Assembly (NCBI GenBank): GCA_000237975.1
Contig: CP003179.1
Span: 744,001 to 808,000, forward strand
Length of the DNA: 64,000 bases
DNA from: Sulfobacillus acidophilus DSM 10332
GTDB taxonomy: Bacteria > Bacillota > Sulfobacillia > Sulfobacillales > Sulfobacillaceae
Direction: 5' to 3'
Made by a program: the position numbers and the translations under genes. Each line of letters begins with the position of its first letter. Position 1 is the stretch's first letter. Below are positions 5,673 through 31,761 of this stretch, one piece after another. Below the pieces are notes generated by a model. It was not told the origin of the DNA. It saw nothing but the letters and a program-made list of their open reading frames with translations, and did not search any database.

Positions 5673-6703
5673 ACCTTGAATTACGGCCGGTCGCCGACGG
5701 TGTCTATGCCACCTCGCGCGCGGAATTGCAGGTCGAAGTCTGTGATGTGGTGGTTTTCGACATGGACGGCGTCCTCATTGATGTCCGTCATAGTTATCCG
5801 GTAGTCATTTGCCGGGCGGTGGACCAATTTTTGGCGGAAAACGGGTTTAGTGGGGACGGGACGGCCGTAACACCGGAAGAAACGACCTACTTTAAAGCGG
5901 CAGGCGGATTTAATAGCGATTGGGCCTTGGCTCAAGGGGTGGCGCTCGTCTATTTGGTGAAAGCCCAAATGGCGGGTGCGCGCCAGATTGACGGGCTGCG
6001 GAACCTATCGCCCGACTTGGCGACCGTCGCGCGCGCGGCGGCTCAGTTGGGCGGAGGACTCGACGGGTTGACGCGGGCTTTAGGGCATTGGGCCGATGCG
6101 CAAGATCTGGAGCGGGCGCTCAACGAATGGGATCGGGCCCGTATTACCCGCTTGGCCCAAGAATTCTATGCCGGAGATCAAGCGCTCACCGTTTTTGGCG
6201 TGACGAACGACACGATTTCCGGCGACGGTCTCATGTTGACGGAAAAACCGCTCGTGACTCGAGAGGAGTTGTTGGCGGCGCCGTTTCAATATGGACTCTA
6301 CACGGGCCGTAACCGGGGTGAAGTGGAGACGGCGTTTCAGATGGCCAACCTGTCGGGGATTTTCCCCGAATCGGCCATCATCACGGAGAATACCGGCATT
6401 AAAAAGCCGAATCCGGCAGGACTTTTTCGTATAGCGGAGGCGCTGAAGCCGCATCTTATGATTTATGCCGGGGACAACCTGGATGACTGGCAAGTGGCCG
6501 CTCGGTATGAGACGGAACGTCCGCTCGACGCCCCGCCTTGCCTTTTTTGCGGGGTGTTAAACGGGTCGCCGGGACCGATGAGCTTTAATTTGTTTCAAGA
6601 ACGGGGAGCCGATCTGATGACCCAAAGCGTGCCTCATCTTTTGCGGTGGCTAAGCCAACGGCGGCGAACATGGGCTCAAGCAGAAGCGCCTTCCCGGTCA
6701 TGA
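5669..6703 (+). CDS. HAD-superfamily phosphatase-like protein (subfamily IA type)
   Basis: Haloacid dehalogenase-like hydrolase, 344 residues. The N-terminal nucleophile motif [16 protein letters not shown] contains the DxDG pair (Asp nucleophile and Asp acid/base), and the later motifs KKPNPAG (lysine) and [12 protein letters not shown] (acidic metal ligands) complete the active site. The text resembles the uncharacterised HAD-IA proteins found in some archaea and cyanobacteria (TIGR01548 type). This is recall and was not searched. The GTG at 5669 overlaps the eno stop (GTGA) with GGGAGG 10 bases upstream, so it is co-translated with glycolysis. The substrate is unknown; a phosphorylated sugar or metabolite-repair role is a guess from context. 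Confidence 0.8.
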
Positions 6704-6770
6704 ACGACCCTTCGCCAGTTTAAGGGGCGCCGTCCGGCATCGATCATCATGGCAAGGAGGCTTCGGAGCG

Positions 6771-7430
6771 ATGACAGAGGGAATGGTCGAACCGGTATAT
6801 CGGTTGCCTCGCATTAATGAACCGGCGCCGGAATTTGAAGCCGATAGTACGCACGGGAAGATTCGATTGTCGGATTTCCGGGGTAAATGGGTGATGTTGT
6901 TTTCTCATCCGGCGGATTTTACTCCGGTGTGTACGACGGAGTTTGTCGCCTTTGCGCGGGCCTTTGACGAATTCGAGAAGCGTCAAGTCCAGTTGATCGG
7001 CTTGTCGGTCGATTCGGTACCCGCTCATTTGGCCTGGGTTCATGCGATTCAAGAGGAATTAGGGGTGCATATCCCGTTTCCGATTATTGCGGATATCAAA
7101 ATGGACGTAGCCCAACGCTACGGGATGATTCATCCGGGGGATAGCACGACCGCGGCGGTACGGAGCGTTTTTTTCATCGACCCCGACGGGTTGATTCGTG
7201 CCATGATTTACTATCCGCTGTCGCTCGGACGGAGTGTGACGGAGCTCTTGCGGGTGATTGACGGACTACAATTCAACTATCGGGAAAAACTTTCAACCCC
7301 GGCCGATTGGACGCCCGGTCAACCGGCCGTCTATCCGGCACCGAATACCCAGGAACAAATGGAGCAACGCATCAAAGAGGATGCCGGCAAACCCAACCTC
7401 AAAGCCTGGTGGTTGAAAACCACCTCGTAG
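6771..7430 (+). CDS. 1-Cys peroxiredoxin (Prx6/AhpC-TSA type)
   Basis: Peroxiredoxin of 219 residues that reduces hydrogen peroxide and organic peroxides in the cytoplasm. The peroxidatic cysteine is Cys54 in DFTPVCTTEF, and it is the only cysteine in the protein, so there is no intramolecular resolving cysteine. This fits the 1-Cys Prx6 class with its extended C-terminal domain (GLQFNYREKLSTPADW). AAGGAGG precedes the ATG. The gene stands alone between the glycolytic operon and an intrinsic terminator. Oxidative defence suits an aerobic metal- or sulfur-oxidising lifestyle, but that lifestyle is inferred. Confidence 0.93.
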   Translation: MTEGMVEPVYRLPRINEPAPEFEADSTHGKIRLSDFRGKWVMLFSHPADFTPVCTTEFVAFARAFDEFEKRQVQLIGLSVDSVPAHLAWVHAIQEELGVHIPFPIIADIKMDVAQRYGMIHPGDSTTAAVRSVFFIDPDGLIRAMIYYPLSLGRSVTELLRVIDGLQFNYREKLSTPADWTPGQPAVYPAPNTQEQMEQRIKEDAGKPNLKAWWLKTTS

Positions 7431-7440
7431 ATTGTTTTGG

Positions 7441-7469
7441 CAAACCCGCTCAAGTGGGCGGGTTTTTTT
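7441..7469 (+). terminator. intrinsic terminator after peroxiredoxin gene
   Basis: A 7-bp stem (AACCCGC, 7443-7449, with GCGGGTT, 7458-7464), an 8-base loop and a run of seven Ts follow the peroxiredoxin stop by about 11 bases. Confidence 0.85.
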
Positions 7470-7541
7470 GTGGGGCGGTCCATTTCACCTTTTCTCTAGC
7501 GCATCCATATCATGGCCAGCAGCTAGAGGAGGGAGAAAGGG

Positions 7542-8849
7542 ATGACCGGGGAAGAACAATTTGACGAAGGTCGGCTGACCCGCTTTCATGCTCGCTTAAT
7601 TACCGTGGCCGGCCTGGGTACGCTGTTTGACTCGATGGATGTGGGGATCGTGTCGTTTGTGATGGCGGCCTTGATTAGTGCCTGGCGTCTTAATGCGTTT
7701 TGGATTGGCATTGTCGGCAGTATCAATTTGGTCGGGATGGCGATTGGGGCGGCACTAGCCGGTAGTTTGGCCGACCGCTTCGGGCGGCGCCAGCTGTTCA
7801 TGCTGACCCTACTCATTTATAGTGTGTCGACCGGCTTGTCCGGATTGTCGATTACGCTCTGGATGCTGTTGTTATTCCGGTTTTTGGTGGGTGTCGGCCT
7901 GGGCGGCGAACTGCCGGTGACGACGACGATGGTGACCGAGTTTTTGCCACGCCGCGACCGGGGCAAGGGCATTGTCTTTTTGGAGAGCTTTTGGGCGGTC
8001 GGTTGGTTGTTGGCGGCCGTTATTGCCTATGTCGTGATTCCTCACTGGGGCTGGCGGGTGGCCTTTTTCGTGGGGACGTTACCGGCTCTTTACGTGTGGT
8101 ATCTGCGACGAGGGATTCCCGAATCGCCGCGATATCTGTTACGCCAAGGGCGGCTGGCCGAAGCCTATCGCGTGATGTCGATGGCGGCCGGCCGCGAGGT
8201 GGCGGCGACCAGTGCACCGGCGGCCCGCCCGCATCCCGGTGTCGGCTCTTTGTTTCAGGGCCGGTGGACGAAGCGGACGATTATGCTTTGGATCCTGTGG
8301 ATGGGGATGAACTTTGCCTACTACGGCATGTTTTTGTGGTTGCCCTCGGTATTGGTGGAACACGGATATTCCTTGGTCCATTCCTTTGCCTATACGTTGA
8401 TTGTGACGTTGGTCCAAATTCCCGGGTACTTTTCGGCCGCTTGGCTGGTAGACCGGGTGGGACGTAAACCCGTCCTTATTGTCTACATTTTGGCTACCGC
8501 TATCGCCGCGTCCCTTTTTAGCCATGCCCACGGCGTAGGGGATGTCTTACTCTACGGATGTCTGCTCGGCTTCTTCAACTTGGGGGCTTGGGGCGTGACC
8601 TATGCCTACACCACGGAACAATATCCCACGTTGATTCGGGGAACCGGAGCCGGTTGGGCCATGGGAATGGGTCGCATTGGCGGCATTGTGGGCCCGTTTT
8701 TGGTGGGGTTGATGTTAGCTAGCCACGTGTCGATACCCGGCATCTTTTGGATATTTACCGTGGTGTTGCTGGTTGTCGGCCTGGCGGTGCTCATATTAGG
8801 ACGTGAAACGCGAGGCCGGGCGATGAGCGAGATCGAACAGGGATTATAA
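7542..8849 (+). CDS. MFS transporter, metabolite:H+ symporter type
   Basis: Twelve-helix major facilitator protein, 435 residues. The A-motif GSLADRFGRRQLFMLT lies between helices 2 and 3, with a second copy (DRVGRKPVLI) after helix 8 and a hydrophilic central loop. The C-terminus ends in the LGRETRGRAMSEIEQ pattern common to sugar-porter, MHS and aromatic-acid symporters. The substrate cannot be told from sequence. GGAGGGAGAAAGGG precedes the ATG at 7542. It is a single-gene unit between two terminators. Confidence 0.88.
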   Translation: MTGEEQFDEGRLTRFHARLITVAGLGTLFDSMDVGIVSFVMAALISAWRLNAFWIGIVGSINLVGMAIGAALAGSLADRFGRRQLFMLTLLIYSVSTGLSGLSITLWMLLLFRFLVGVGLGGELPVTTTMVTEFLPRRDRGKGIVFLESFWAVGWLLAAVIAYVVIPHWGWRVAFFVGTLPALYVWYLRRGIPESPRYLLRQGRLAEAYRVMSMAAGREVAATSAPAARPHPGVGSLFQGRWTKRTIMLWILWMGMNFAYYGMFLWLPSVLVEHGYSLVHSFAYTLIVTLVQIPGYFSAAWLVDRVGRKPVLIVYILATAIAASLFSHAHGVGDVLLYGCLLGFFNLGAWGVTYAYTTEQYPTLIRGTGAGWAMGMGRIGGIVGPFLVGLMLASHVSIPGIFWIFTVVLLVVGLAVLILGRETRGRAMSEIEQGL

Positions 8850-8853
8850 GGGA

Positions 8854-8884
8854 CGCCGCGAGGGCTTCGACTCTCGCGGTTTTG
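8854..8884 (+). terminator. putative intrinsic terminator after MFS gene
   Basis: The stem CCGCGAG (8856-8862) pairs with CTCGCGG (8873-8879) and is followed by only four Ts, so it is a weaker terminator than the one at 7441. Confidence 0.6.
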
Positions 8885-8898
8885 CTGATCACCGGGTG

Positions 8899-8907
8899 TG
8901 GTATAAT
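8899..8907 (+). promoter_or_regulatory. extended -10 promoter for secG
   Basis: TGGTATAAT (8899-8907) is a perfect extended -10 element about 40 bases upstream of the secG start. No good -35 box is seen at 17 bp spacing, which is usual for extended -10 promoters. It lies just after the terminator of the MFS gene. Confidence 0.7.
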
Positions 8908-8948
8908 ATGAGGACTGGGGTGAATCGTCGCACGGAAGGTTGGGATCA

Positions 8949-9182
8949 GTGAATACCGTATTGTTGGTGGCCGACATTATTGTTGCCGTGTTGTTAATGG
9001 GCTCGATTTTATTACAAACCGGCTACACGCCGGGTATGTCGGGGGCTCTTGGTGGAGGCTATACCCAACAAGGGCTAGGAGGCAAGAAGCAGGGCGTTGA
9101 CGAATTTTTGGCGAAAGTGACGGTCGTGCTTTCGATCCTGTTCGCCGTCATCACGCTCTTACTGGCCCGATTTTGGCATTAG
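8949..9182 (+). CDS. secG: preprotein translocase subunit SecG
   Basis: Small membrane subunit of the SecYEG translocon, 77 residues. There are two transmembrane helices (about residues 3-21 and 54-74) joined by a Gly-rich loop (SGALGGGYTQQGLGG), the usual SecG layout. I chose the GTG at 8949 because GGAAGG (8934-8939) is 9 bases upstream; a TTG at 8940 is possible but sits right next to that site. The position upstream of rnr and smpB matches the conserved Gram-positive order secG-rnr-smpB-ssrA, which supports the call. Confidence 0.92.
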   Translation: MNTVLLVADIIVAVLLMGSILLQTGYTPGMSGALGGGYTQQGLGGKKQGVDEFLAKVTVVLSILFAVITLLLARFWH

Positions 9183-9213
9183 GCCGGAATACCCGTCAAA
9201 CGATGAACGGCAA

Positions 9214-9256
9214 CAAAGCCTCTGAACAGTGGGTGCTGTGGCAGAGGTTTCTTTTT
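9214..9256 (+). terminator. terminator/attenuator between secG and rnr
   Basis: An imperfect long stem (about 9215-9224 with 9242-9250, CCTCTG/CAGAGG core) is followed by TTTCTTTTT. It sits 27 bases upstream of rnr, so it either ends the secG transcript or partly attenuates read-through. Confidence 0.6.
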
Positions 9257-9282
9257 CGTGAGAGTGAGGACTAGGGAAACGC

Positions 9283-11427
9283 ATGCCCAAACGAAGCGCC
9301 ATCGTTGTTGAGGATTTGATGGAACAACTTTTCGCCTTGCTCTACCAGCGGGATCCGGTGCCGGAAGGCGATGTGATACAACGCGTGGTCGGCCGGGGGA
9401 AAGCGTCCAAGGCGCATTATCGCCTTTATAGCCAACTTCGTCACGAGGGCTGGCTCGTGCGGAATTCGGAAGGGCAGATTACCGTCCTGACTCGCACCGG
9501 CACCTTGCGGGTCCATCCGCGAGGGTTTGGGTTCGTTGTCAACCCGGACTATCAGGGAGACGACGTATTTGTCCCTGAGCGGTGGCTCTTGAGTGCCACG
9601 CATGACGATCAGGTTCTGGTTTGGATGCGGAGGGTACCCGGGTCTCCCGGCCCGGAGGGTCGGATTATGAACATCTTAACCCGGGCCACCCAAGAAGTCG
9701 TGGGCCGTTTGGATCGCGCGCGGAACGGGAGTTGGCGGGTCATCCCGGAAGATCCGCGCCGTCCGCTGGTCTGGTTGGGGCGTCCGTCCACTCACGGCCT
9801 AAAGGCGGGCGCGGTGGCTTTGGCCCGTATTACCGAGTGGCCGTTAGATCCGAAATTACCGGTGCGAGGAGAAATTCAAGAGATTCTAGGGGAATTCGGT
9901 TCGCCGGGCGTTGATGTGAGGGCGGTCATGGTGGCGCATCATTTGCCGGCGCGCTTTCCGCCGGAGGTATTAGCCGAAGCGGAGCGCCTGCCCGAGTCGG
10001 TACGTGATATCGATTGGCATGGCCGCCGGGACTTAACCCGGTATCCTATCGTGACCATTGACGGCCAAGACGCCAAGGACTTGGATGATGCCATATCTGT
10101 GGAGCGCATCGACCAGGGGTATCGGGTGGGCGTGCATATCGCCGATGTCAGCTATTATGTGCCGGAGGACAGCGCGCTGGATCGGGAGGCACGACAGCGC
10201 GGCACCAGCGTCTACTTGGTGGACCGCGTCATCCCGATGTTACCCGAACGGTTGAGTAACGGCATCGCCAGTCTGAATCCGATGGTACCGCGGTTGGCGG
10301 TGACGGCCTGGGTTACTTTAGACCGGACCGGCAAGCCGATTCAGACCGCTTTTGAACGCACGGTGATTCAAAGCCGGCGTCGACTGACCTATGAAGGCGT
10401 CAACCGCTGGTTTCAGGAGGGACAAGCCGACGATGCCGAAATCGGGGATTTGTTGCAGACGGCCCGTGAGGTTCACGATCTCCTACGAAAACGTCGAATG
10501 GAGCGGGGCGCCGTCGATTTTGATTTGCCGGAAACGAAAGTCATATTAGATGCGGCGGGTCACCCTATTGCGATCCAACCCCGGGTTCGGGATATTGCGG
10601 AATCCATCATCGAGGAATTTATGCTCCTGGCCAATGAGGCCGTCGCGCGGGAATTACTCCAACATCAATTGCCGGGCCTATTTCGGGTCCACGATGAGCC
10701 GGGGGCGGACAAGCTCGATCAATTTCGGGAATTGATCGGGGCACTCGGCTATCGGCTGCCGAAGCGGGTGACCCCGAAAGCGTTACAGCAATTGCTGAAT
10801 CAAATCAAAGGACGGCCCGAGGAGCGCGTGATTAGCAGTGCGTTACTCCGGTCGATGAAGCAAGCCCGCTATGGTCCGGAAAACACCGGGCATTTTGGAT
10901 TAGCTTCAGGGGAATATACCCATTTTACCTCCCCGATCCGGCGCTACCCTGATTTATGGGTTCATCGGATTCTCACGAAACATCTTGAAGGGCCTATTGC
11001 CGAAACCGATCTGACCCGCTGGAAGCTCTTGGTTTCGGAGGTTGGGGAAATTGCCTCGGCCCGGGAACGGGAGGCGATGGATGCCGAACGGGATTCGGTG
11101 GCGTTAAAAGAAGCGGAGTTTATGGCCCAGCACATCGGCGAGGTGTATGACGCCGTAATCTCCGGAGTGGCGGCTTTTGGCATTTTTGTCGAGCTACCCA
11201 ATTTAATTGAGGGATTGGTTCGGATTGAAGATTTGCCGCGCGACTACTGGGTGCACGATCCGATCCACTATCAGTTGCGGGGGGAACGGACGGGGCGCGT
11301 GTTTCAGTTGGGGCAAGAAATACGGGTGCGGGTGGCACGGGTCGATATCGGTTTACGTCGGATCGACTTTGTATTGGACCAGGCGGCCACGGCCAAACCG
11401 GAAAAATCCCGGGCGCGACGCCGGTAA
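9283..11427 (+). CDS. rnr: ribonuclease R
   Basis: 3'-5' processive exoribonuclease of the RNB family, 714 residues. In order: an N-terminal winged-helix region (about 1-65), cold-shock/OB domains (about 70-215), the RNB catalytic domain with TIDGQDAKDLDDAISV (the Asp cluster that binds Mg2+) and the SPIRRYPDLWVHR motif, then a C-terminal S1 RNA-binding domain (about 625-705) and a basic tail. RNase R degrades structured RNA and, with SmpB-tmRNA, non-stop mRNAs. Its position just upstream of smpB and ssrA fits that partnership. The start ATG is at 9283. Confidence 0.96.
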   Translation: MPKRSAIVVEDLMEQLFALLYQRDPVPEGDVIQRVVGRGKASKAHYRLYSQLRHEGWLVRNSEGQITVLTRTGTLRVHPRGFGFVVNPDYQGDDVFVPERWLLSATHDDQVLVWMRRVPGSPGPEGRIMNILTRATQEVVGRLDRARNGSWRVIPEDPRRPLVWLGRPSTHGLKAGAVALARITEWPLDPKLPVRGEIQEILGEFGSPGVDVRAVMVAHHLPARFPPEVLAEAERLPESVRDIDWHGRRDLTRYPIVTIDGQDAKDLDDAISVERIDQGYRVGVHIADVSYYVPEDSALDREARQRGTSVYLVDRVIPMLPERLSNGIASLNPMVPRLAVTAWVTLDRTGKPIQTAFERTVIQSRRRLTYEGVNRWFQEGQADDAEIGDLLQTAREVHDLLRKRRMERGAVDFDLPETKVILDAAGHPIAIQPRVRDIAESIIEEFMLLANEAVARELLQHQLPGLFRVHDEPGADKLDQFRELIGALGYRLPKRVTPKALQQLLNQIKGRPEERVISSALLRSMKQARYGPENTGHFGLASGEYTHFTSPIRRYPDLWVHRILTKHLEGPIAETDLTRWKLLVSEVGEIASAREREAMDAERDSVALKEAEFMAQHIGEVYDAVISGVAAFGIFVELPNLIEGLVRIEDLPRDYWVHDPIHYQLRGERTGRVFQLGQEIRVRVARVDIGLRRIDFVLDQAATAKPEKSRARRR

Positions 11428-20550: not shown

Positions 20551-21940
20551 GATCAAGTCCTAATTTGTGTGTAAAAGTTCCCTTGGTTCGGAATGCGTTA
20601 CGCGACCGATGTGGCTTCCGATTGCGAGGGTTCCTCTGCTGCCCCGGCCGACCGTTTCGCCTGCCAGTAGGATTCGAGGTTCAGGTACCGCGGGCCCGTG
20701 GTCCACGCCTCGTGCTGCTCCAGTAACAGCGCCCCTAAGAGGCGGATGGCGGAATCCCGGTTCGGAAAGATCCGAATTACCCGTTCCCGGCGCCGAATTT
20801 CCGCATTGAGCCGTTCAACGCCATTCGTGGTGCGCAATCGGATCCGTAACGGTTCCGGTAATTGTAAGACGGCCAGGGCGTCCGCCAGCCCCTCCTCCAA
20901 CCGCGTCAACGCCCGTCCGGCCCGCTCTTCAAAGTCCTGCACGATCTTCTTCCATAACGTGTCGACGGTGGCCCGGTCCGGCCGGGGCTTCGAAGAGGGA
21001 CCGAAGGCGCCCGTGCAGTTCCTTTTGCACCGATTTCGGGGCCGCGTCCAGCACATTCCGCGTGAGGTGGGTTTGGCACCGCTGCCAACGGGCGCCTTGA
21101 ACGTGTTGGTCGATCGCCTTGCGCAGCCCGCGATGGTCATCGGAGACCACCCGATCGACGCCGGTTAACCCCCGATCTTTCAGGTCGGTAAACACGGTGG
21201 ACCATGTCTGCTGAGATTCGCTGTCCCCGATCCAGAACCCCAGAATTTCCCGATACCCTGCGGCATTAATGCCGGTCACCACACACCCGCTCCGGGGCCG
21301 CACGGCCCCGTGTTCGCGGATTTTCCGCACCAAGGCGTCGACGATGAGGAACGGGTAGGGGGTCTCGGCCAGGGACCGCGTCCGCCATGGCTTTACGGCC
21401 GCGTCGAGACCTTTCGCCAACTCGGATACGGTGGACTTAGAAAATTCCGTGCCACAGAGCTCTTCGGTGACCCGTCGGATTTTGCGGGTGGACACCCATT
21501 CACCACCATTTCCATCAACGTTAACACGAGGGCTTTTTCGTGACGCTGATAGCGATCAAAGAGCGCGGGACTGAACTCGCCGTCCCGCGTGCGCGGGACG
21601 TCCAGCGTCAACGTGCCGACGCGCGTCGTCAACTGCCGGCTGCGGTAGCCATTCCGATATCCTTGCCGCCCTTCGGTCCGCTCATACCGGTCGGCTTGGA
21701 GGTATTCGGTCACTTCGGCATCTAACACCGGATTTAAGACCTGTTGCAATAACTGAGCCAGCGCCTGATCTTTTTGCTCGACAAGGGCTTGGATTGTTTG
21801 AGCATCCCGCGTAATCTGATAGTGAGCCATTGCGTCATCCTCCGGGAGATTTGTGGGTTTTGTCGCTTTCAAATCTACCAAGGGAACCCAATGGCTCCTA
21901 AATCTTTAAGCCCTTTTTACACACTATACTGGACCCTACT
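20551..21940 (-). mobile_element. IS256-family element, copy A (inactivated)
   Basis: 1390 bp. It runs from GATCAAGTCC at the left to GGACCCTACT at the right, with imperfect terminal inverted repeats sharing GTCC and GTGTGTAAAA. It is nearly identical to copy B at 30375-31761 and in the same orientation. No 8-9 bp target duplication is seen at either copy. Confidence 0.9.
20598..21830 (-). pseudogene. IS256-family (Mutator-type) transposase, copy A, two frameshifts
   Basis: The sequence aligns base for base with the intact 409-residue transposase of copy B. It has two disabling changes: CCC at 21495-21497 where copy B has CCCC, and a duplicated CCGG near 20978-20985. It also has a handful of substitutions. 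The DDE-type catalytic region is therefore split over three frames. The start corresponds to the ATG at 21830 preceded by GGAGGATGACG. Copy B could in principle act in trans on its ends. Confidence 0.9.
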
Positions 21941-24300: not shown

Positions 24301-24303
24301 GCG

Positions 24304-24534
24304 CGCCGGACCGCCTGGCGGGAGCTGCTGGACGACGCGGTCCGGCGCAAATTTGACTCGGTACTGGTCTTCAAACTCGACCGCGCCTTCCGCAGCGTGA
24401 AGCACATGCACGATATCTTGGCCGTGTGGGAGCCGTTGGGCATCGGGTTTTTGTCGGCGCAGGAACGCTTTGACACGACCACGGCCTTGGGCCGCTTGCT
24501 CCTCAATCTGTTGGCATTTATACTGAATCCGTAG
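24304..24534 (+). pseudogene. serine recombinase (resolvase) fragment
   Basis: About 76 residues matching the middle of the resolvase/invertase catalytic domain: WRELLDDAVRRKFDSVLVFKLDRAFRS followed by HDILAVWEPLGIGFLSAQERFDTTTALGRLLLNLLA. The N-terminal catalytic Ser segment and the C-terminal DNA-binding domain are gone. It abuts, head to head, the remains of the helicase-like gene on the minus strand. Confidence 0.7.
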
Positions 24535-24546
24535 GTGGGCTTACAA

Positions 24547-25804
24547 ATGGGGTGTTGCTCATTGTTTCGAGTCGCCGTGTGTGGAGATATCATTCGCGTC
24601 GGATTATCGGTATAGCGGATATCCAACGGTTGAGTGAGATTATTCAACTTTGCGATGTAGGGTTTGGCAATTTGGAGACTCCCATTATTCGCCGAAAAGT
24701 CGCGGCTTCCGGGACGCAGTCTGGGGGATGGTTGTACGCATCTCCAGCTATAGTCAATGACCTTTGTAATATAGGGATCAATGTTGTTAGTCTAGCCAAC
24801 AACCACATATTAGATTGGGGGGTTGAAGGGGCGCGGTATACCCGAGAAGTTCTTGAAAAAAACGGCATTGTGCATGCCGGTTTTGGGGAGAATCTAGCGG
24901 AAGCCAGCATTCCCCAGTTTTACGATGCTGGACCGGTGCGTATTGGGTTGGTGGCTGCTACGACAACGTTTTCTGAGGAACACCGGGCGGGACCCCAGAG
25001 AGCGGATGTGTTGGGGCGTCCAGGGATTAACGGCATTGGTCACAGCATTAGATGTACGGTAAAAACGTCCGATTATGACATGCTCAAAAATCTGGGAGAA
25101 ACGCTCGGGATTGGGCGCCCTCTTGGGCCCAACCGATTATTTTTTGCCGGTATGGAGTATGAATCCGGTAACGAGTATGATATTACAACTACGGTTAACT
25201 CTGAAGACGCGGAACGAATTCTAGATGCTGTTGAACTGTCGTCATTCTACGCGAACTTGACAATCCTTAGTCTTCATACCCATGAGATTTCATTTTCGGA
25301 TTGGGAAGCTCCGCCGGAATTTCTTATGTCGTTATGCCGCCAAGCCGTAGAACGAGGAGCGACGATGGTCGTCTGCACGGAACCCATGTCGTGCGTGGCG
25401 TAGAAATCTATCAAGGGCATCCGATTTTTTACGGGTTAGGGAATCTGTTCTTTAACGATCTAGCCGTTGTGCAGCCTGCCGAACGGTATCACGAATTCAA
25501 TCTTAAAGGTGATGTAGATCCTCTGGCACTCGCCAAGGAGATTCGGAAAGCTCGAGAGTTCGAAGAGGACATTTTTTGGGAAGGGCTAATGGCAACCGTG
25601 GTCATTGATGAACAGTCAGTGTCCGTAGAGTTGTTCGCACTGGACTTACGCGGGAGTCATCCCGCACTCGTCGGGTTGCCGACCCTCGCCCAAGGGGACA
25701 AGCGAACCCGTGTATTAGAACGGGTTGCTCGGCTATCGAAAACACTGGAGGGACCCGCGATCACGATACCGTCTGCTGGTCCTGCGGTGATCTCCATCTC
25801 ATGA
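24547..25804 (+). pseudogene. CapA-family (PGA_cap) metallophosphoesterase-like protein, two frameshifts
   Basis: Pieced across frames, the protein begins MGCSLFRVAVCGDIIRVGLSV (ATG 24547), shifts near 24615 into DIQRLSEIIQLCDVGFGNLETPI and VVSLANNHILDWG, and shifts again near 25383 into HGTHVVRGVEIYQGHPIFYGLGNLFF. These are the metal-binding D, NLE, NNH and GHxxH-type motifs of CapA/PgsA-like proteins of the calcineurin-like fold. CapA is tied to poly-gamma-glutamate export, but distant members sit in peptide-modification clusters. Its stop overlaps the transporter start (ATGA), so it headed the operon. About 419 codons if repaired. Confidence 0.75.
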
Positions 25805-27030
25805 TACACGCTGACGCGAAGCGCTCGCGATTGTTGCTTTTGGCTGCATCGAGCTTGTCTGGGTGGACGAACTGGGTCTTGCTAACGTCAGTGCTATCCT
25901 ACTATGCTATCCATTCGCTTCACGGGTTGATTGGGTGGGTCTGGGTGGCCCGCCTCATGCCATTCATCATCGTCGGTCCCGTTGTTTCGCCTTATGTGGA
26001 CCGACTGACCCGCAAAATTCCGTTTATGATCTCGGTTGATCTTGGCCGCCTCGGTTTAAGCTTGGGAGTGGCGATAGCATTTCTGCTCGATGGGCGGGCC
26101 TACTGGTTGCTGGTACTGGTCTTGGGAGAAAGCATCTTGTCCGTCAGTTACACGTCTGCTCGCAATGCATGGGTGACCAGGGCATACCACACCATGAATA
26201 TTGGCCGCATCAATGGGGCCCTCCAAGCCATTGGGTCAGCGACCATGGTCGCGGGGACGGTGCTTGGACCTCTTATCGTGCGAGGCCTTGGCATTGTTGC
26301 GTTACTCGTGACTCTCGCAGCTAGCTATTTCTTTGTCGTCGTGTGTCTTGGAGCATTGGCACGAATCCCAGACGACGGAGTGCCGGGCGAAAACGGCGTT
26401 GGCATAATGACCCGCGGCCTCTTGGGGGCCCCTCACATTCAGCGATTGACTACCCATCCGATTGCCCTCATCGCCCTCATTGCCGCCGCAGGCTGGGGTT
26501 TAGGGGGCGGTGCGAGCAACGTGGTCAACGCCTTGATCGGTGTTCAACAGTGGCATGCGGGCGCCTTGTCTATCAGCGTGACGTTTGGGGCGATGGCGCT
26601 AGGCAGTATCGCAGCGACACTGGTTGTGCGCTTGGTACACCCCGAGACCGCCGATCGATGGTTGTCTCTCGCGGGCTGCGCGATGTTCGCTGAAGGCATC
26701 GGGCAAATCGCGTTCGGCCATACGGGGAACATGGTCCTTGGAGGTGTGTTGGCCGTGGTGGTCGGGTTGTTTTCTGGGGCCGGTGATGTCGGCTTCGATA
26801 CGGCGGTGATGACAGGAGTTGCCGAACAATACCAGGCCCGCGCCTTTTCGCTGATTTGGATGGCATCCTCCGTCAGTTTGTCCGCATCGTCTCTGGGGTT
26901 CAATGACTTGGTGTGTGTGTTGCGTGTGCCTGGGATTGCCAATTTAGGGGGTGGGCTTGTGGCCCTAACCGGGATTGTGACGATCGTGTTAAGCTATGCC
27001 ACTCTGAACAGAGACGACCGCTCCTTGTAG
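25801..27030 (+). CDS. MFS exporter (MFS_3 / macrolide-efflux type)
   Basis: 409 residues with twelve predicted helices. The N-terminal half (WTNWVLLTSVLSYYAI, then SPYVDRLTRKIPFMISVDLGRL) has the pattern of drug/peptide-type MFS_3 exporters such as EntS. The frame is intact. The ATG at 25801 overlaps the CapA-like stop (ATGA), so both belonged to one operon with the peptide, radical SAM and decarboxylase genes downstream. Export or self-immunity for the cluster product is the natural inference; the substrate is unknown. Confidence 0.8.
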   Translation: MIHADAKRSRLLLLAASSLSGWTNWVLLTSVLSYYAIHSLHGLIGWVWVARLMPFIIVGPVVSPYVDRLTRKIPFMISVDLGRLGLSLGVAIAFLLDGRAYWLLVLVLGESILSVSYTSARNAWVTRAYHTMNIGRINGALQAIGSATMVAGTVLGPLIVRGLGIVALLVTLAASYFFVVVCLGALARIPDDGVPGENGVGIMTRGLLGAPHIQRLTTHPIALIALIAAAGWGLGGGASNVVNALIGVQQWHAGALSISVTFGAMALGSIAATLVVRLVHPETADRWLSLAGCAMFAEGIGQIAFGHTGNMVLGGVLAVVVGLFSGAGDVGFDTAVMTGVAEQYQARAFSLIWMASSVSLSASSLGFNDLVCVLRVPGIANLGGGLVALTGIVTIVLSYATLNRDDRSL

Positions 27031-27195
27031 TTCCCTTTTGGCCAGCGGGATAAGAGAGAGCAGACTTTTCGGTGAGCGTAGCATAGTTCGACAAACTTAT
27101 CCCTTTCGGTATCTTATCCTAGTCAATGTAGGCCAGGTGCGCTGTATAGGATTCATGTGCTCGAGACACTAGAGCTTGACAAGGAGGTGAGGTCC

Positions 27196-27318
27196 ATGGC
27201 TACGCAAAAGATGTCCCAGAACTTGAAACCCCGTAATTTGGGTCAACCTGTGAAAACCGAAGTTGTTAAGAGCTGCAAGGTTCAACAGAACGCATCGTTT
27301 GGGCCCGTAGCGAAGTAA
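27196..27318 (+). CDS. candidate precursor peptide (40 residues)
   Basis: A small gene with a very strong ribosome site (AAGGAGGTGAGG) six to seven bases before the ATG. The peptide starts MATQKMSQNLKPRNLGQ, is basic, has a single Cys (in VVKSCKV) and ends NASFGPVAK. It lies 165 bp after the exporter and directly before a SPASM radical SAM gene, which is the usual place for a ribosomally made peptide substrate. I do not recognise a known precursor class: it lacks the Cys repeats of SCIFF or sactipeptides. Residues 20-40 are the likely core only by position. Confidence 0.5.
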   Translation: MATQKMSQNLKPRNLGQPVKTEVVKSCKVQQNASFGPVAK

Positions 27319-27325
27319 CTCTAGC

Positions 27326-28177
27326 TTGACTTTACATCCGCAGTTTACCGATATCTTGCAATATCTATTAGCTTCGAATGTCGAGGTCACCATTTTAACT
27401 AATGGACAGCGATTGAAGCTCATGCACATTGAGGCATTTCGCCATCCCAACGTGCTCGTTAAAGTGCCCCTGCTGGGCTGGGGCGACAGTCATGACGTGA
27501 TGACGCAACGACATGGATCATTTGAACGTACGGTAAAGAACATTCGCCACATGGTATCGCTGGGAATTCGAGTCAAATTGACGAGTACAGTCACCAAAGT
27601 GAATCTCCATGATATGGATTATCTTGATGCGTTAGCCAAAGAATTAAACATTCCCCTAGAAAAGTCACCAATTTATCCGGCTGGCTATGCACGCGACAAC
27701 TGGGACCGACTCTTTCCCGAAAACTACAACGACATCGTGGAGCGGTGCGGCCGTGTCGAAACGGGGTCGACTCCAGGTTTATTGCAGATTGGTGAAGAGG
27801 TTCCCCCACCGGGCGAGCAAGCTGCTGTGTTCGGGTGCTCTGACTGTGGGACTCAGGTACACGCGATTAAGAGTGACGGGAAGGTGATTCCTTGTTTGCT
27901 TCTACGGGAGCGGGTGTTTCAATTCGGCGATTTAACGAATGAATCATTGGACACCGTCTATGCTACGGACAACGAAGATCGCGAACGAGTAAAGCAGCTT
28001 TTCTCATATGACAAACTCGAAACTTGCAATGCGTGCGAGGCGCGGTACGCGTGCCGGGGCGGGGGTTGTCGTGCGGTTAGTTACCTGTTTAAAGGCACCA
28101 TGGACATCAAAAATCCGCTTTATGACGAGTGTTACTACGAACCGCCGCAAAGTCCCTATGGAGATGCTCTACGGTAA
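27326..28177 (+). pseudogene. SPASM-domain radical SAM maturase, N-terminus deleted
   Basis: The remaining 283 residues start in the middle of the family (TLHPQFTDILQYLLASNVEVTILTNGQ, normally preceded by GGEP) and include the C-terminal SPASM cysteine pattern: CSDC, VIPCLLL, CNACEARYACRGGGC and DECYYE. The roughly 90-100 N-terminal residues with the CxxxCxxC motif that binds the SAM-cleaving 4Fe-4S cluster are absent, and the frame is closed by TAG at 27308. A deletion between the peptide gene and this gene is the simplest reading. As it stands it cannot act as a radical SAM enzyme. Confidence 0.8.
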
Positions 28178-29310
28178 TGTACCGATACCAGATAGACTAT
28201 CCCGGGGTTTGGGAGAATGGACGGATTTATGGTCGAACGATTACCGCTATCTTAAGATCCTCCCCGACACCCCTATTTGTCGTAAGTCCCACGCGTGCTC
28301 TTGATAACAGTATCCGATTCCTGGAGTTGACTCGTAATTTGACGCATAGTCGGGCAGAGGTGTTCTATTCTGTTAAGACGTGTTCAGATACCCGAATAGT
28401 TCGGATGATCAGCCAATCCGCTGTTGGCGCTGAGGTAGTTAGTGATGAAGAATTGGAGCTAACTCGTGGCCTAGGATTCTCACGCTTCATTGTCGACGGA
28501 GCTTGGAAGAGTTCGACCATTCTCGAGAACGCTATTAGTTCGCATTGTGCGATGATTAATGTAGGCCACGAAGACGAATTACCTGAAATCGACACCATAG
28601 CGCGGAAGAATGGACTTGTTCAACCTATCGGGGTGCGACTACGCTTGCCTCATCAAAGTCTTTTGGGGCTAAGCCTTAACGAACTTGAACGTGTGTTGGC
28701 AAAATTGCCTAAATACCAGAATATTCGTTTGTCTAGGGTTCATGTTCATGCTGGGTTTAACGTACTGGCCCAAAACATTCATCCAATTATCGATACCTTA
28801 CAACGAGGCGCCTCCATAGCTAGTGCATTCGGCCAGCACATTACGACGTTTGACGTGGGTGGGGGAATGGCCGAAATGGCCACAGCCGAACGAGACCTTG
28901 ATCGGCATGTGGCAACTCTTGTTTCGTCGTTGATAACAACGCCACAGAGTCGCTTGGTTTTTGAGCCGGGGCGTTTAATCGTAGGTGATGCAGCGGTGTT
29001 AGTAGCGTTCGTCGTTAGGCGGACACCAGACAACGTCCTCATTATTGACACGTCAGCCGAATTGCTCGGATTTTTATCGGGACAAACGCCACTGGTTGGA
29101 GTTTGGACAGGCGGGCGGCCATCGAGCAGGGCGTTAAGTAACATGATCGTGCGGGGAGTGTGGGAATCTGACCATGACTACATTGAGGCCGAATTACCGG
29201 CCGATGTGACGGTAGGAGACAAGTTGCTATTCTTGAATTGTGGGGCGTATGTTCTATCTTTCAGGGAAGCATTTTCACCGTACCGCAGCCACATCGTGTA
29301 TATCGAATAG
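28177..29310 (+). CDS. PLP-dependent fold-III decarboxylase (DAP/ornithine decarboxylase-like)
   Basis: 377 residues: a TIM-barrel PLP domain and a C-terminal beta domain. Lys67 in FYSVKTCSD is the Schiff-base lysine (YALKAN in LysA), FDVGGGM is the phosphate-binding Gly motif, and FEPGRLIVGDA and LNCGAYVLSF match the late EPGR and CGAY motifs (the Cys enters the active site of the partner subunit). The ATG at 28177 overlaps the radical SAM stop (TAATG). It probably decarboxylates an amino acid or amino-acyl product of the cluster. The frame is intact; the substrate is unknown. Confidence 0.85.
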   Translation: MYRYQIDYPGVWENGRIYGRTITAILRSSPTPLFVVSPTRALDNSIRFLELTRNLTHSRAEVFYSVKTCSDTRIVRMISQSAVGAEVVSDEELELTRGLGFSRFIVDGAWKSSTILENAISSHCAMINVGHEDELPEIDTIARKNGLVQPIGVRLRLPHQSLLGLSLNELERVLAKLPKYQNIRLSRVHVHAGFNVLAQNIHPIIDTLQRGASIASAFGQHITTFDVGGGMAEMATAERDLDRHVATLVSSLITTPQSRLVFEPGRLIVGDAAVLVAFVVRRTPDNVLIIDTSAELLGFLSGQTPLVGVWTGGRPSSRALSNMIVRGVWESDHDYIEAELPADVTVGDKLLFLNCGAYVLSFREAFSPYRSHIVYIE

Positions 29311-30374: not shown

Positions 30375-31761
30375 GATCAAGTCCTAATTTGTGTGTAAAA
30401 GTTCCCTTGGTTCGGAATGCGTTACGCGACCGATGTGGCTTCCGATTGCGAGGGTTCCTCTGCTGCCCCGGCCGACCGTTTCGCCTGCCAGTAGGATTCG
30501 AGGTTCAGGTACCGCGGGCCCGTGGTCCACGCCTCGTGCTGCTCCAGTAACAGCGCCCCTAAGAGGCGGATGGCGGAATCCCGGTTCGGAAAGATCCGAA
30601 TTACCCGTTCCCGGCGCCGAATTTCCGCATTGAGCCGTTCAACGCCATTCGTGGTGCGCAATCGGATCCGTAACGGTTCCGGTAATTGTAAGACGGCCAG
30701 GGCGTCCGCCAGCCCCTCCTCCAACCGCGTCAACGCCCGTCCGGCCCGCTCTTCAAAGTCCTGCACGCTCTTCTTCCATAACGTGTCGACGGTGGCCCGG
30801 TCCGGGGCTTCGAAGAGGGACCGAAGGCGCCCGTGCAGTTCCTTTTGCACCGATTTCGGGGCCGCGTCCAGCACATTCCGCGTGAGGTGGGTTTGGCACC
30901 GCTGCCAACGGGCGCCTTGAACGTGTTGGTCGATCGCCTTGCGCAGCCCGCGATGGTCATCGGAGACCACCCGATCGACGCCGGTTAACCCCCGATCTTT
31001 CAGGTCGGTAAACACGGTGGACCATGTCTGCTGAGATTCGCTGTCCCCGATCCAGAACCCCAGAATTTCCCGATACCCTGCGGCATTAATGCCGGTCACC
31101 ACACACCCGCTCCGGGGCCGCACGGCCCCGTGTTCGCGGATTTTCAGCACTAAGGCGTCGACGATCAGGAACGGGTAGGGGGTCTCGGCCAGGGACCGCG
31201 TCCGCCATGGCTTTACGGCCGCGTCGAGACCTTTCGCCAACTCGGATACGGTGGACTTAGAAAATTCCGTGCCACAGAGCTCTTCGGTGACCCGTCGGAT
31301 TTTGCGGGTGGACACCCCATTCACCACCATTTCCATCAACGTTAACACGAGGGCTTTTTCGTGACGCTGATAGCGATCAAAGAGCGCGGGACTGAACTCG
31401 CCGTCCCGCGTGCGCGGGACGTCCAGCGTCAACGTGCCGACGCGCGTCGTCAACTGCCGGCTGCGGTAGCCATTCCGATATCCTTGCCGCCCTTCGGTCC
31501 GCTCATACCGGTCGGCTTGGAGGTATTCGGTCACTTCGGCATCTAACACCTGATTTAAGACCTGTTGCAATAACTGAGCCAGCGCCTGATCTTTTTGCTC
31601 GACAAGGGCTTGGATTGTTTGAGCATCCCGCGTAATCTGATAGTGAGCCATTGCGTCATCCTCCGGGAGATTTGTGGGTTTTGTCGCTTTCAAATCTACC
31701 AAGGGAACCCAATGGCTCCTAAATCTTTAAGCCCTTTTTACACACTATACTGGACCCTACT
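30375..31761 (-). mobile_element. IS256-family element, copy B (intact)
   Basis: 1387 bp with the same ends as copy A: GATCAAGTCC at the left, GGACCCTACT at the right, and inverted GTGTGTAAAA cores. The end resembles the classical IS256 terminus (GATAAAGTCC). It interrupts the TPR gene. No direct target duplication is present (flanks GCAACAACG and TGGTTTGGA), so rearrangement has occurred at one or both ends. Confidence 0.92.
30422..31651 (-). CDS. IS256-family transposase (copy B)
   Basis: 409 residues, an intact Mutator-type DDE transposase. The start is the ATG at 31651 preceded by GGAGGATGACGCA. The DDE motifs are around FLIVDALVLKIRE (first Asp), GVDRVVSDDHRGL (second Asp, with the family SDxHxGL pattern) and NGVERLNAEIRRRERVIRIFPN (Glu). 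The ends and reading frame are both complete, so this copy could still be active and mobilise copy A. Confidence 0.95.
   Translation of the reverse strand: MAHYQITRDAQTIQALVEQKDQALAQLLQQVLNQVLDAEVTEYLQADRYERTEGRQGYRNGYRSRQLTTRVGTLTLDVPRTRDGEFSPALFDRYQRHEKALVLTLMEMVVNGVSTRKIRRVTEELCGTEFSKSTVSELAKGLDAAVKPWRTRSLAETPYPFLIVDALVLKIREHGAVRPRSGCVVTGINAAGYREILGFWIGDSESQQTWSTVFTDLKDRGLTGVDRVVSDDHRGLRKAIDQHVQGARWQRCQTHLTRNVLDAAPKSVQKELHGRLRSLFEAPDRATVDTLWKKSVQDFEERAGRALTRLEEGLADALAVLQLPEPLRIRLRTTNGVERLNAEIRRRERVIRIFPNRDSAIRLLGALLLEQHEAWTTGPRYLNLESYWQAKRSAGAAEEPSQSEATSVA

Follow-up and report, generated by a model that had tools for sequence, protein, structure and literature searches.

A candidate peptide-modification block of five genes, intact in the metagenome-assembled genome WH4.bin11 and decaying in Sulfobacillus acidophilus DSM 10332

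The window analyzed here, a stretch of 64,000 nucleotides from the genome (contig CP003179.1) of the acidophilic, mineral-oxidizing bacterium Sulfobacillus acidophilus DSM 10332, carries a block of five genes on its plus strand. Open reading frame and domain analysis places them in the order CapA-family enzyme, major facilitator superfamily (MFS) transporter, 40-residue peptide, radical S-adenosylmethionine (SAM)-SPASM protein and fold-III pyridoxal phosphate (PLP) enzyme. On the basis of sequence comparisons, we consider it fairly probable that the block specifies a pathway of the ribosomally synthesized and post-translationally modified peptide (RiPP) type, of unassigned class, which survives intact in the metagenome-assembled genome (MAG) Bacillota WH4.bin11, a related environmental genome, and is being lost from S. 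acidophilus DSM 10332. The combination fits no class that we can name, and the literature searched for its parts (titles and abstract openings, with partial coverage) yielded no report of it.

The block in the window and its intact copy

The CapA/PGA_cap gene is a pseudogene in the window (24543-25804, homologous DNA starting at 24543) and consists of two open pieces in different frames, at 24552-25403 and 25301-25804 (Pfam PF09587, E 2.9e-30 and 3.6e-06, respectively). Downstream are the open MFS gene (25801-27030, 409 amino acids; PF07690, E 2.9e-11), the ribosome-binding site AAGGAGGTGAGG (27181-27192), the gene of the putative precursor peptide MATQKMSQNLKPRNLGQPVKTEVVKSCKVQQNASFGPVAK (27196-27318), a deletion scar (27319-27328), a radical SAM-SPASM remnant (27326-28177; PF04055, PF13186) and the open gene of a divergent fold-III PLP enzyme (28177-29310, 377 amino acids; PF02784, E 1.1e-21). 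The CapA and MFS genes overlap by 4 nucleotides (ATGA) and the radical SAM and PLP enzyme genes meet at TAATG, as had been described in a first-pass annotation of five co-directional genes. That annotation had also placed the ribosome-binding site of the 40-residue frame at 27196; both the frame and the site are present, but 27196 is the position of the start codon.

The genome collection was scanned with the remnant by a procedure that seeks exact 8-residue stretches and so reaches close relatives only. An intact block was found in one other genome, on contig JAKACM010000024.1 (hereafter, L002) of MAG WH4.bin11, a member of the same family as S. acidophilus and listed as G419 in our class genome set. 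All five genes are open there: CapA (P0003, 418 amino acids, L002 4452-5708), MFS (421 amino acids, 5695-6960), the peptide (7088-7210), radical SAM-SPASM (P0001, 421 amino acids, 7305-8570) and the PLP enzyme (377 amino acids, 8570-9703). Their order is identical to that in the window and the same neighbors overlap, CapA and MFS by 14 nucleotides instead of 4, and the radical SAM and PLP enzyme genes by the same TAATG. The two loci are 75.5% and 76.2% identical in two blastn blocks, with similarity ending at window positions 24543 and 29309. At the protein level, the MFS and PLP enzyme copies are 72% and 69% identical, and the radical SAM remnant matches residues 146-421 of P0001 with 84% identity. 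Since the same five genes, order and overlapping pairs recur in a second genome, the block goes beyond chance, and the co-occurrence of the radical SAM/peptide pair with the CapA, MFS and PLP enzyme genes is seen at both loci.

Ratios of nonsynonymous to synonymous substitution rates (dN/dS) between the window and L002 are 0.083 for the radical SAM gene, 0.141 and 0.145 for the CapA pieces, 0.158 for MFS and 0.203 for the PLP enzyme, with dS near 1 in all four large genes. Values of 0.08-0.20 are the signature of purifying selection on these genes, and most of the divergence would therefore have arisen while they were functional; the decay of the window copy appears to be recent. The alignment to L002 reveals at least two frameshifts in the window CapA gene. 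Between the peptide stop codon and the radical SAM gene, the window lacks L002 7213-7738 (ca. 520 bp net, by blastn and alignment), and with it residues 1-145 of the radical SAM protein, including C100xxxC104xxC107. The CxxxCxxC motif is needed to bind the radical SAM cluster, so a remnant that has lost it together with residues 1-145 cannot do so. The frames of the peptide, the transporter and the PLP enzyme stay open. Judged by these alignments, the window cluster is a degenerate copy of the block of WH4.bin11 and would no longer carry out either the CapA or the radical SAM step; both lesions suspected at the outset, the CapA frameshifts and the missing N-terminal part of the radical SAM protein, are real.

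The peptide and the radical SAM-SPASM protein

As can be seen from the comparison with L002, 31 of the 40 peptide residues (78%) are identical, and the start codon and the ribosome-binding site (itself identical in the alignment) are kept. The peptide frame contains no indel, whereas the intergenic stretch upstream of it contains several. Nucleotide differences are distributed over codon positions 1, 2 and 3 as 8/2/8, and 11 nonsynonymous changes were observed versus ca. 53 expected at the synonymous rate of the neighboring genes (Poisson 2.6e-12). The frame is probably conserved as a protein. Its synonymous sites are also unusually conserved, with a proportion of differences (pS) of 0.28 (7 of ca. 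25) versus 0.54-0.58 (ca. 56%) in the neighbors (p 0.008), and an extra RNA-level, DNA-level or translational constraint on the gene is possible. The conserved C-terminal segment, residues 26-40, reads SCKVQQ[ND]A[SG]FGPVAK and includes a single conserved cysteine, Cys27. Thus, at two loci, a ribosomally encoded candidate precursor is conserved beside an enzyme of modifying type.

The intact radical SAM protein P0001 combines a Pfam Radical_SAM domain (E 6.4e-20) carrying CxxxCxxC at C100/C104/C107 with a SPASM domain (E 3.7e-07), as is expected of a maturase; the window copy has lost the CxxxCxxC. Its best PDB match, SkfB (6efn, E 2.1e-11), aligns with residues 92-243, which belong to the radical SAM core, and no further; cytosylglucuronate decarboxylase (7vob) and PqqE (E 4.7e-06) come next. 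About 90 residues precede the core in P0001 and about 110 in SkfB. A single-sequence model of this N-terminal part has three strands followed by three helices, and sactipeptide maturase 5why, which we take to be CteB, is among its non-significant fold matches (chain residues 2-72; third in Foldseek, E 0.26; VIA-align Z 3.6). A model of the full-length protein was set aside (predicted local distance difference test, pLDDT, 39). The N-terminal model suggests a leader-binding, RRE-like domain. Its order of strands followed by helices would be that of such domains. At odds with this, a passage of the RRE-Finder paper gives the order as helices and then sheet (PMC7470986).

Among the NCBIfam models listed, P0001 scores best with HxsC (86.3 bits, cut-off 267.9), mycofactocin (85.9 of 265) and ACGX (84 of 400); it is below the cut-offs of the listed sactipeptide and ranthipeptide maturase models and reaches 69 bits versus 340 with that of PapB. 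With the maturases SkfB, 5why and PapB it shares the radical SAM core, an additional N-terminal region, a SPASM or related cluster region and an adjacent cysteine-containing peptide. In contrast to those systems, the core segment of the peptide has one cysteine only, and a CapA-family and a PLP enzyme are added.

The CapA-family and PLP enzymes

Over residues 4-399 of 418, the intact CapA protein P0003 aligns with MslH (8gq9, E 2.8e-42), an epimerase of the C-terminal Trp of a lasso peptide. The MslH study describes tests of Ca ligands E44, N87, H259 and H261 and of dyads H88/D91 and H295/D11 (PMC10406935). All eight residues are kept in P0003, as E40, N82, H240, H242, H83/D86 and H277/D9, a conservation that is probably non-discriminating within the CapA family. 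With the NCBIfam model of MslH, P0003 scores 187 bits, below the cut-off of 700; no lasso peptide genes are found in the block, and the core segment ends in Lys, not Trp.

Three CapA loci on plasmids, one of them without annotation, were inspected separately. Near CapA genes of Haladaptatus (L041:1113-9323) and Sinorhizobium (L040:605-9308) plasmids, the annotation includes a D-aminoacylase and an alanine racemase within ca. 7 kb, or the CapA gene follows ABC transporter genes and an amidase gene. These settings may hint at a link between the CapA family and D-residue chemistry.

The PLP enzyme keeps the PLP lysine (K67) and the HxH, GG, EPGR and GAY motifs, and in these and in its fold-III domain it resembles LysA and N-citrylornithine decarboxylase (7kh2), one of its solved relatives. 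It departs from LysA in having WESDHD, with no Cys, in place of the CESGD block and HAGF in place of HIGS, and in lacking the IRP motif. The cysteine of that block is the usual acid catalyst. LysA model scores of 100.3 (hmmscan) and 91.4 bits (genome search) for the window protein and 107.6 for the L002 protein, i.e., 91-108 bits, are below the cut-off of 297.9, whereas a separate housekeeping LysA encoded elsewhere in the S. acidophilus genome exceeds it (432.6 bits). Because of the low score and the absence of both the Cys and the IRP motif, we rejected a role of the enzyme as diaminopimelate (DAP) decarboxylase. In the label "decarboxylase" given to the protein earlier, membership in the fold-III PLP family (PF02784) thus stands, and the activity itself is uncertain. 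In the Thermotoga maritima DAP decarboxylase, the distal carboxylate is bound by Arg249 and Arg285 and the distal amine by Glu315, and enzymes of this type work on a D-centre (PMC8277567).

The proposed pathway and its distribution

From the observed gene set, order, conservation, domain content and decay, we infer that the peptide is a substrate, where its leader ends and its core begins, and each reaction of the following scheme. Residues 1-25 of the peptide would be the leader and residues 26-40 the core. The radical SAM-SPASM protein would bind the leader through its N-terminal ca. 85 residues and then modify the core. Cys27 would be the most likely site or starting point, and the nearest solved relatives of the protein suggest a thioether or a C-C crosslink. 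The CapA-family enzyme possibly epimerizes a residue, perhaps the C-terminal one, as MslH does. A fold-III PLP decarboxylase requires a free alpha-amino acid, so proteolysis would have to come first and the LysA-like enzyme would take as its substrate a freed residue, possibly one linked through its side chain; alternatively, it may supply an amine. The MFS protein would export the product. If the PLP enzyme indeed acts on a released product, this would place fold-III decarboxylation within a radical SAM peptide pathway and would put to the test the idea that epimerases are common among CapA-family proteins; the L002 copy supplies a defined, expressible precursor-enzyme pair. A bolder version, which we regard as distinctly unlikely, is a new class of radical SAM-derived products, with CapA setting a D-centre and the Cys-less, LysA-derived PLP enzyme removing its carboxylate, so that a Lys/Cys-derived amine is excised from a ribosomal peptide and exported.

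Several observations weigh against a RiPP-type pathway. Just two loci are known, one of them in a MAG (estimated at 98% completeness and 6% contamination), and because of this contamination the host of the L002 contig is uncertain. The block is rare, with strong matches to the peptide and the PLP enzyme in 2 of the 154 genomes of the class. No protease gene is present within the five genes. The peptide matches no NCBIfam family, its own dN/dS is 0.36, and the shortfall of nonsynonymous changes relative to its own synonymous rate is of borderline significance (Fisher p 0.057; binomial p 0.065) since its synonymous sites are themselves conserved. P0001 is below the cut-off of each of the 25 NCBIfam models listed (the best 25 of 80 matched). 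Its first ca. 90 residues have no PDB sequence match at E 10 and a single Pfam match, to an unrelated family (E 0.18). The model of this part has a pLDDT of 49.5, and its fold matches are non-significant and mostly retroviral integrases, which lead the list. On the MslH model, generic plasmid CapA proteins used as controls (Sinorhizobium, 258 bits; Haladaptatus, 307 bits) exceed the L002 protein (187 bits), so the MslH likeness of the latter is family-level only, and we rejected it as proof of epimerization. Finally, nine distant homologs of the radical SAM protein show no peptide in the stretches examined.

These nine homologs were found, together with the full-length protein of WH4.bin11 and the window copy, among 11 of the 154 class genomes with matches at E 1e-25. 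They are 33-41% identical to the query in alignments that all lie within residues 66-293, and no CapA, MFS or PLP enzyme gene was detected beside them (tblastn, E up to 1, some stretches being cut by contig ends). At two of the loci, peptide matches at E 0.2 were retrieved, one lying on the opposite strand within the radical SAM match itself and the other 24 residues long at 29% identity. One of the nine, L043:5627-6853, is ca. 42% identical over the core and stands without partner genes in a 9.5-kb contig. The pairing of radical SAM protein and peptide, which had been proposed from gene order, is borne out by the full-length relative (84% identical over the shared part), directly preceded by a peptide with the same frame, start and ribosome-binding site. 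Given that the nine homologs show neither the peptide nor the other genes in the stretches examined, it is established only for a narrow family (n = 2).

The absence of a peptide beside the distant homologs, its conserved synonymous sites, possibly reflecting a role at the RNA level or in translation, and the presence of a small-molecule enzyme, 7vob, among the PDB matches could all be accounted for if the peptide were not a substrate but a small accessory protein or a regulatory leader, the radical SAM enzyme acting on a small molecule. We find this very unlikely. RiPP maturases typically combine a SPASM domain with an additional domain at the N terminus and have beside their gene a short peptide frame with a strong ribosome-binding site, an arrangement that the block resembles, and it is the protein sequence of the peptide that is conserved, second codon positions most of all.

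A different possibility, which we hold to be unlikely, is that the peptide is only a scaffold, like PqqA, and that crosslinking, proteolysis, PLP-dependent decarboxylation and export by the MFS protein yield a small molecule or cofactor rather than a peptide. The pyrroloquinoline quinone (PQQ) and mycofactocin systems (PqqE, MftC) also have a SPASM radical SAM protein beside a short peptide, and a small product could plausibly be released here. PqqE and the mycofactocin maturase model are among the matches of P0001, 7kh2 is among the relatives of the PLP enzyme, the transporter is of the MFS type, and a ribosomal peptide offers the free alpha-amino acid needed by such an enzyme only once it has been excised. 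PQQ and mycofactocin derive from Glu-Tyr and Val-Tyr pairs, respectively. The core has no pair of this type, however, the PLP enzyme has no cysteine block, and the five genes include neither a PqqD/MftB-like nor a protease gene.

Searches with the peptide confirmed the narrow distribution. Within the order, matches with an E value of 10 or less occur in 13 of 42 genomes and are strong in 2; within the class, 9 of 154 have matches at E up to 0.1, of which 2 are strong and seven weak (E 0.019-0.077); in a phylum sample of 398 genomes, 2 matches at E 0.01 are that of the window itself and one in genome G023. The latter (E 0.002) is apparently due to chance, with an internal stop codon and a surrounding 3,072-base stretch without any frame longer than 69 amino acids. 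A match in genome G404 was likewise discarded, being antisense to a transposase-like frame cut by a contig end. Plasmids gave five records at E about 4.

With the PLP enzyme, 3 of the 154 class genomes gave matches at E 1e-20, the two close copies and a 33% homolog (G516). The latter carries a C-terminal domain recognized by Pfam, and none of the partner genes occurs in the stretch examined around it. In the phylum sample, the window's own copy was the only match both for the PLP enzyme (1 of 398, E 1e-40) and for the radical SAM protein (1 of 398, E 1e-38), at thresholds so strict that distant relatives would not be listed. Viral contigs contained no relative of the radical SAM protein. In the plasmid collection, 198, 280 and 73 records match the radical SAM, CapA and PLP enzyme proteins, respectively, all at less than 60% identity (22-28%, 32-37% and 22-28% among the rows listed).

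Mobile elements surround both copies. The window cluster lies between two near-identical direct copies of an insertion sequence with a Mutator-type transposase, both on the minus strand: the right one (30375-31761; PF00872, E 1.7e-124) is open and the left one (20551-21940), which differs from it in length by one 4-nucleotide and one 1-nucleotide difference, has a frameshift. In the 20 bases flanking the copies, whose exact ends were not determined, no target-site duplication can be seen. A truncated serine resolvase fragment (24301-24519, plus strand; PF00239 positions 47-119 of 145, E 1.3e-11) adjoins the left border of the block. In L002, the block is preceded by two resolvase genes and followed by part of a Tn3 transposase gene. 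Horizontal movement of the five-gene block is likely.

Such elements could also have joined two units, CapA-MFS and peptide-radical SAM-PLP enzyme, by chance, the synteny then reflecting shared descent of one moved block; the MFS gene is indeed separated from the peptide by 165 nucleotides in the window and 127 in L002. We assign little probability to this explanation, as the order has been kept at ca. 75% DNA identity and with dS near 1 in four large genes, and the DNA similarity does not extend beyond 24543 and 29309.

Scanning L002 for promoters and terminators gave nothing above shuffled sequence (8 versus 7.3 and 6 versus 5.0, respectively). Directly after the intact cluster, L002 carries a truncated luciferase-like monooxygenase gene (9798-10043; PF00296, E 8.1e-16), and the similarity to the window DNA ends before it.

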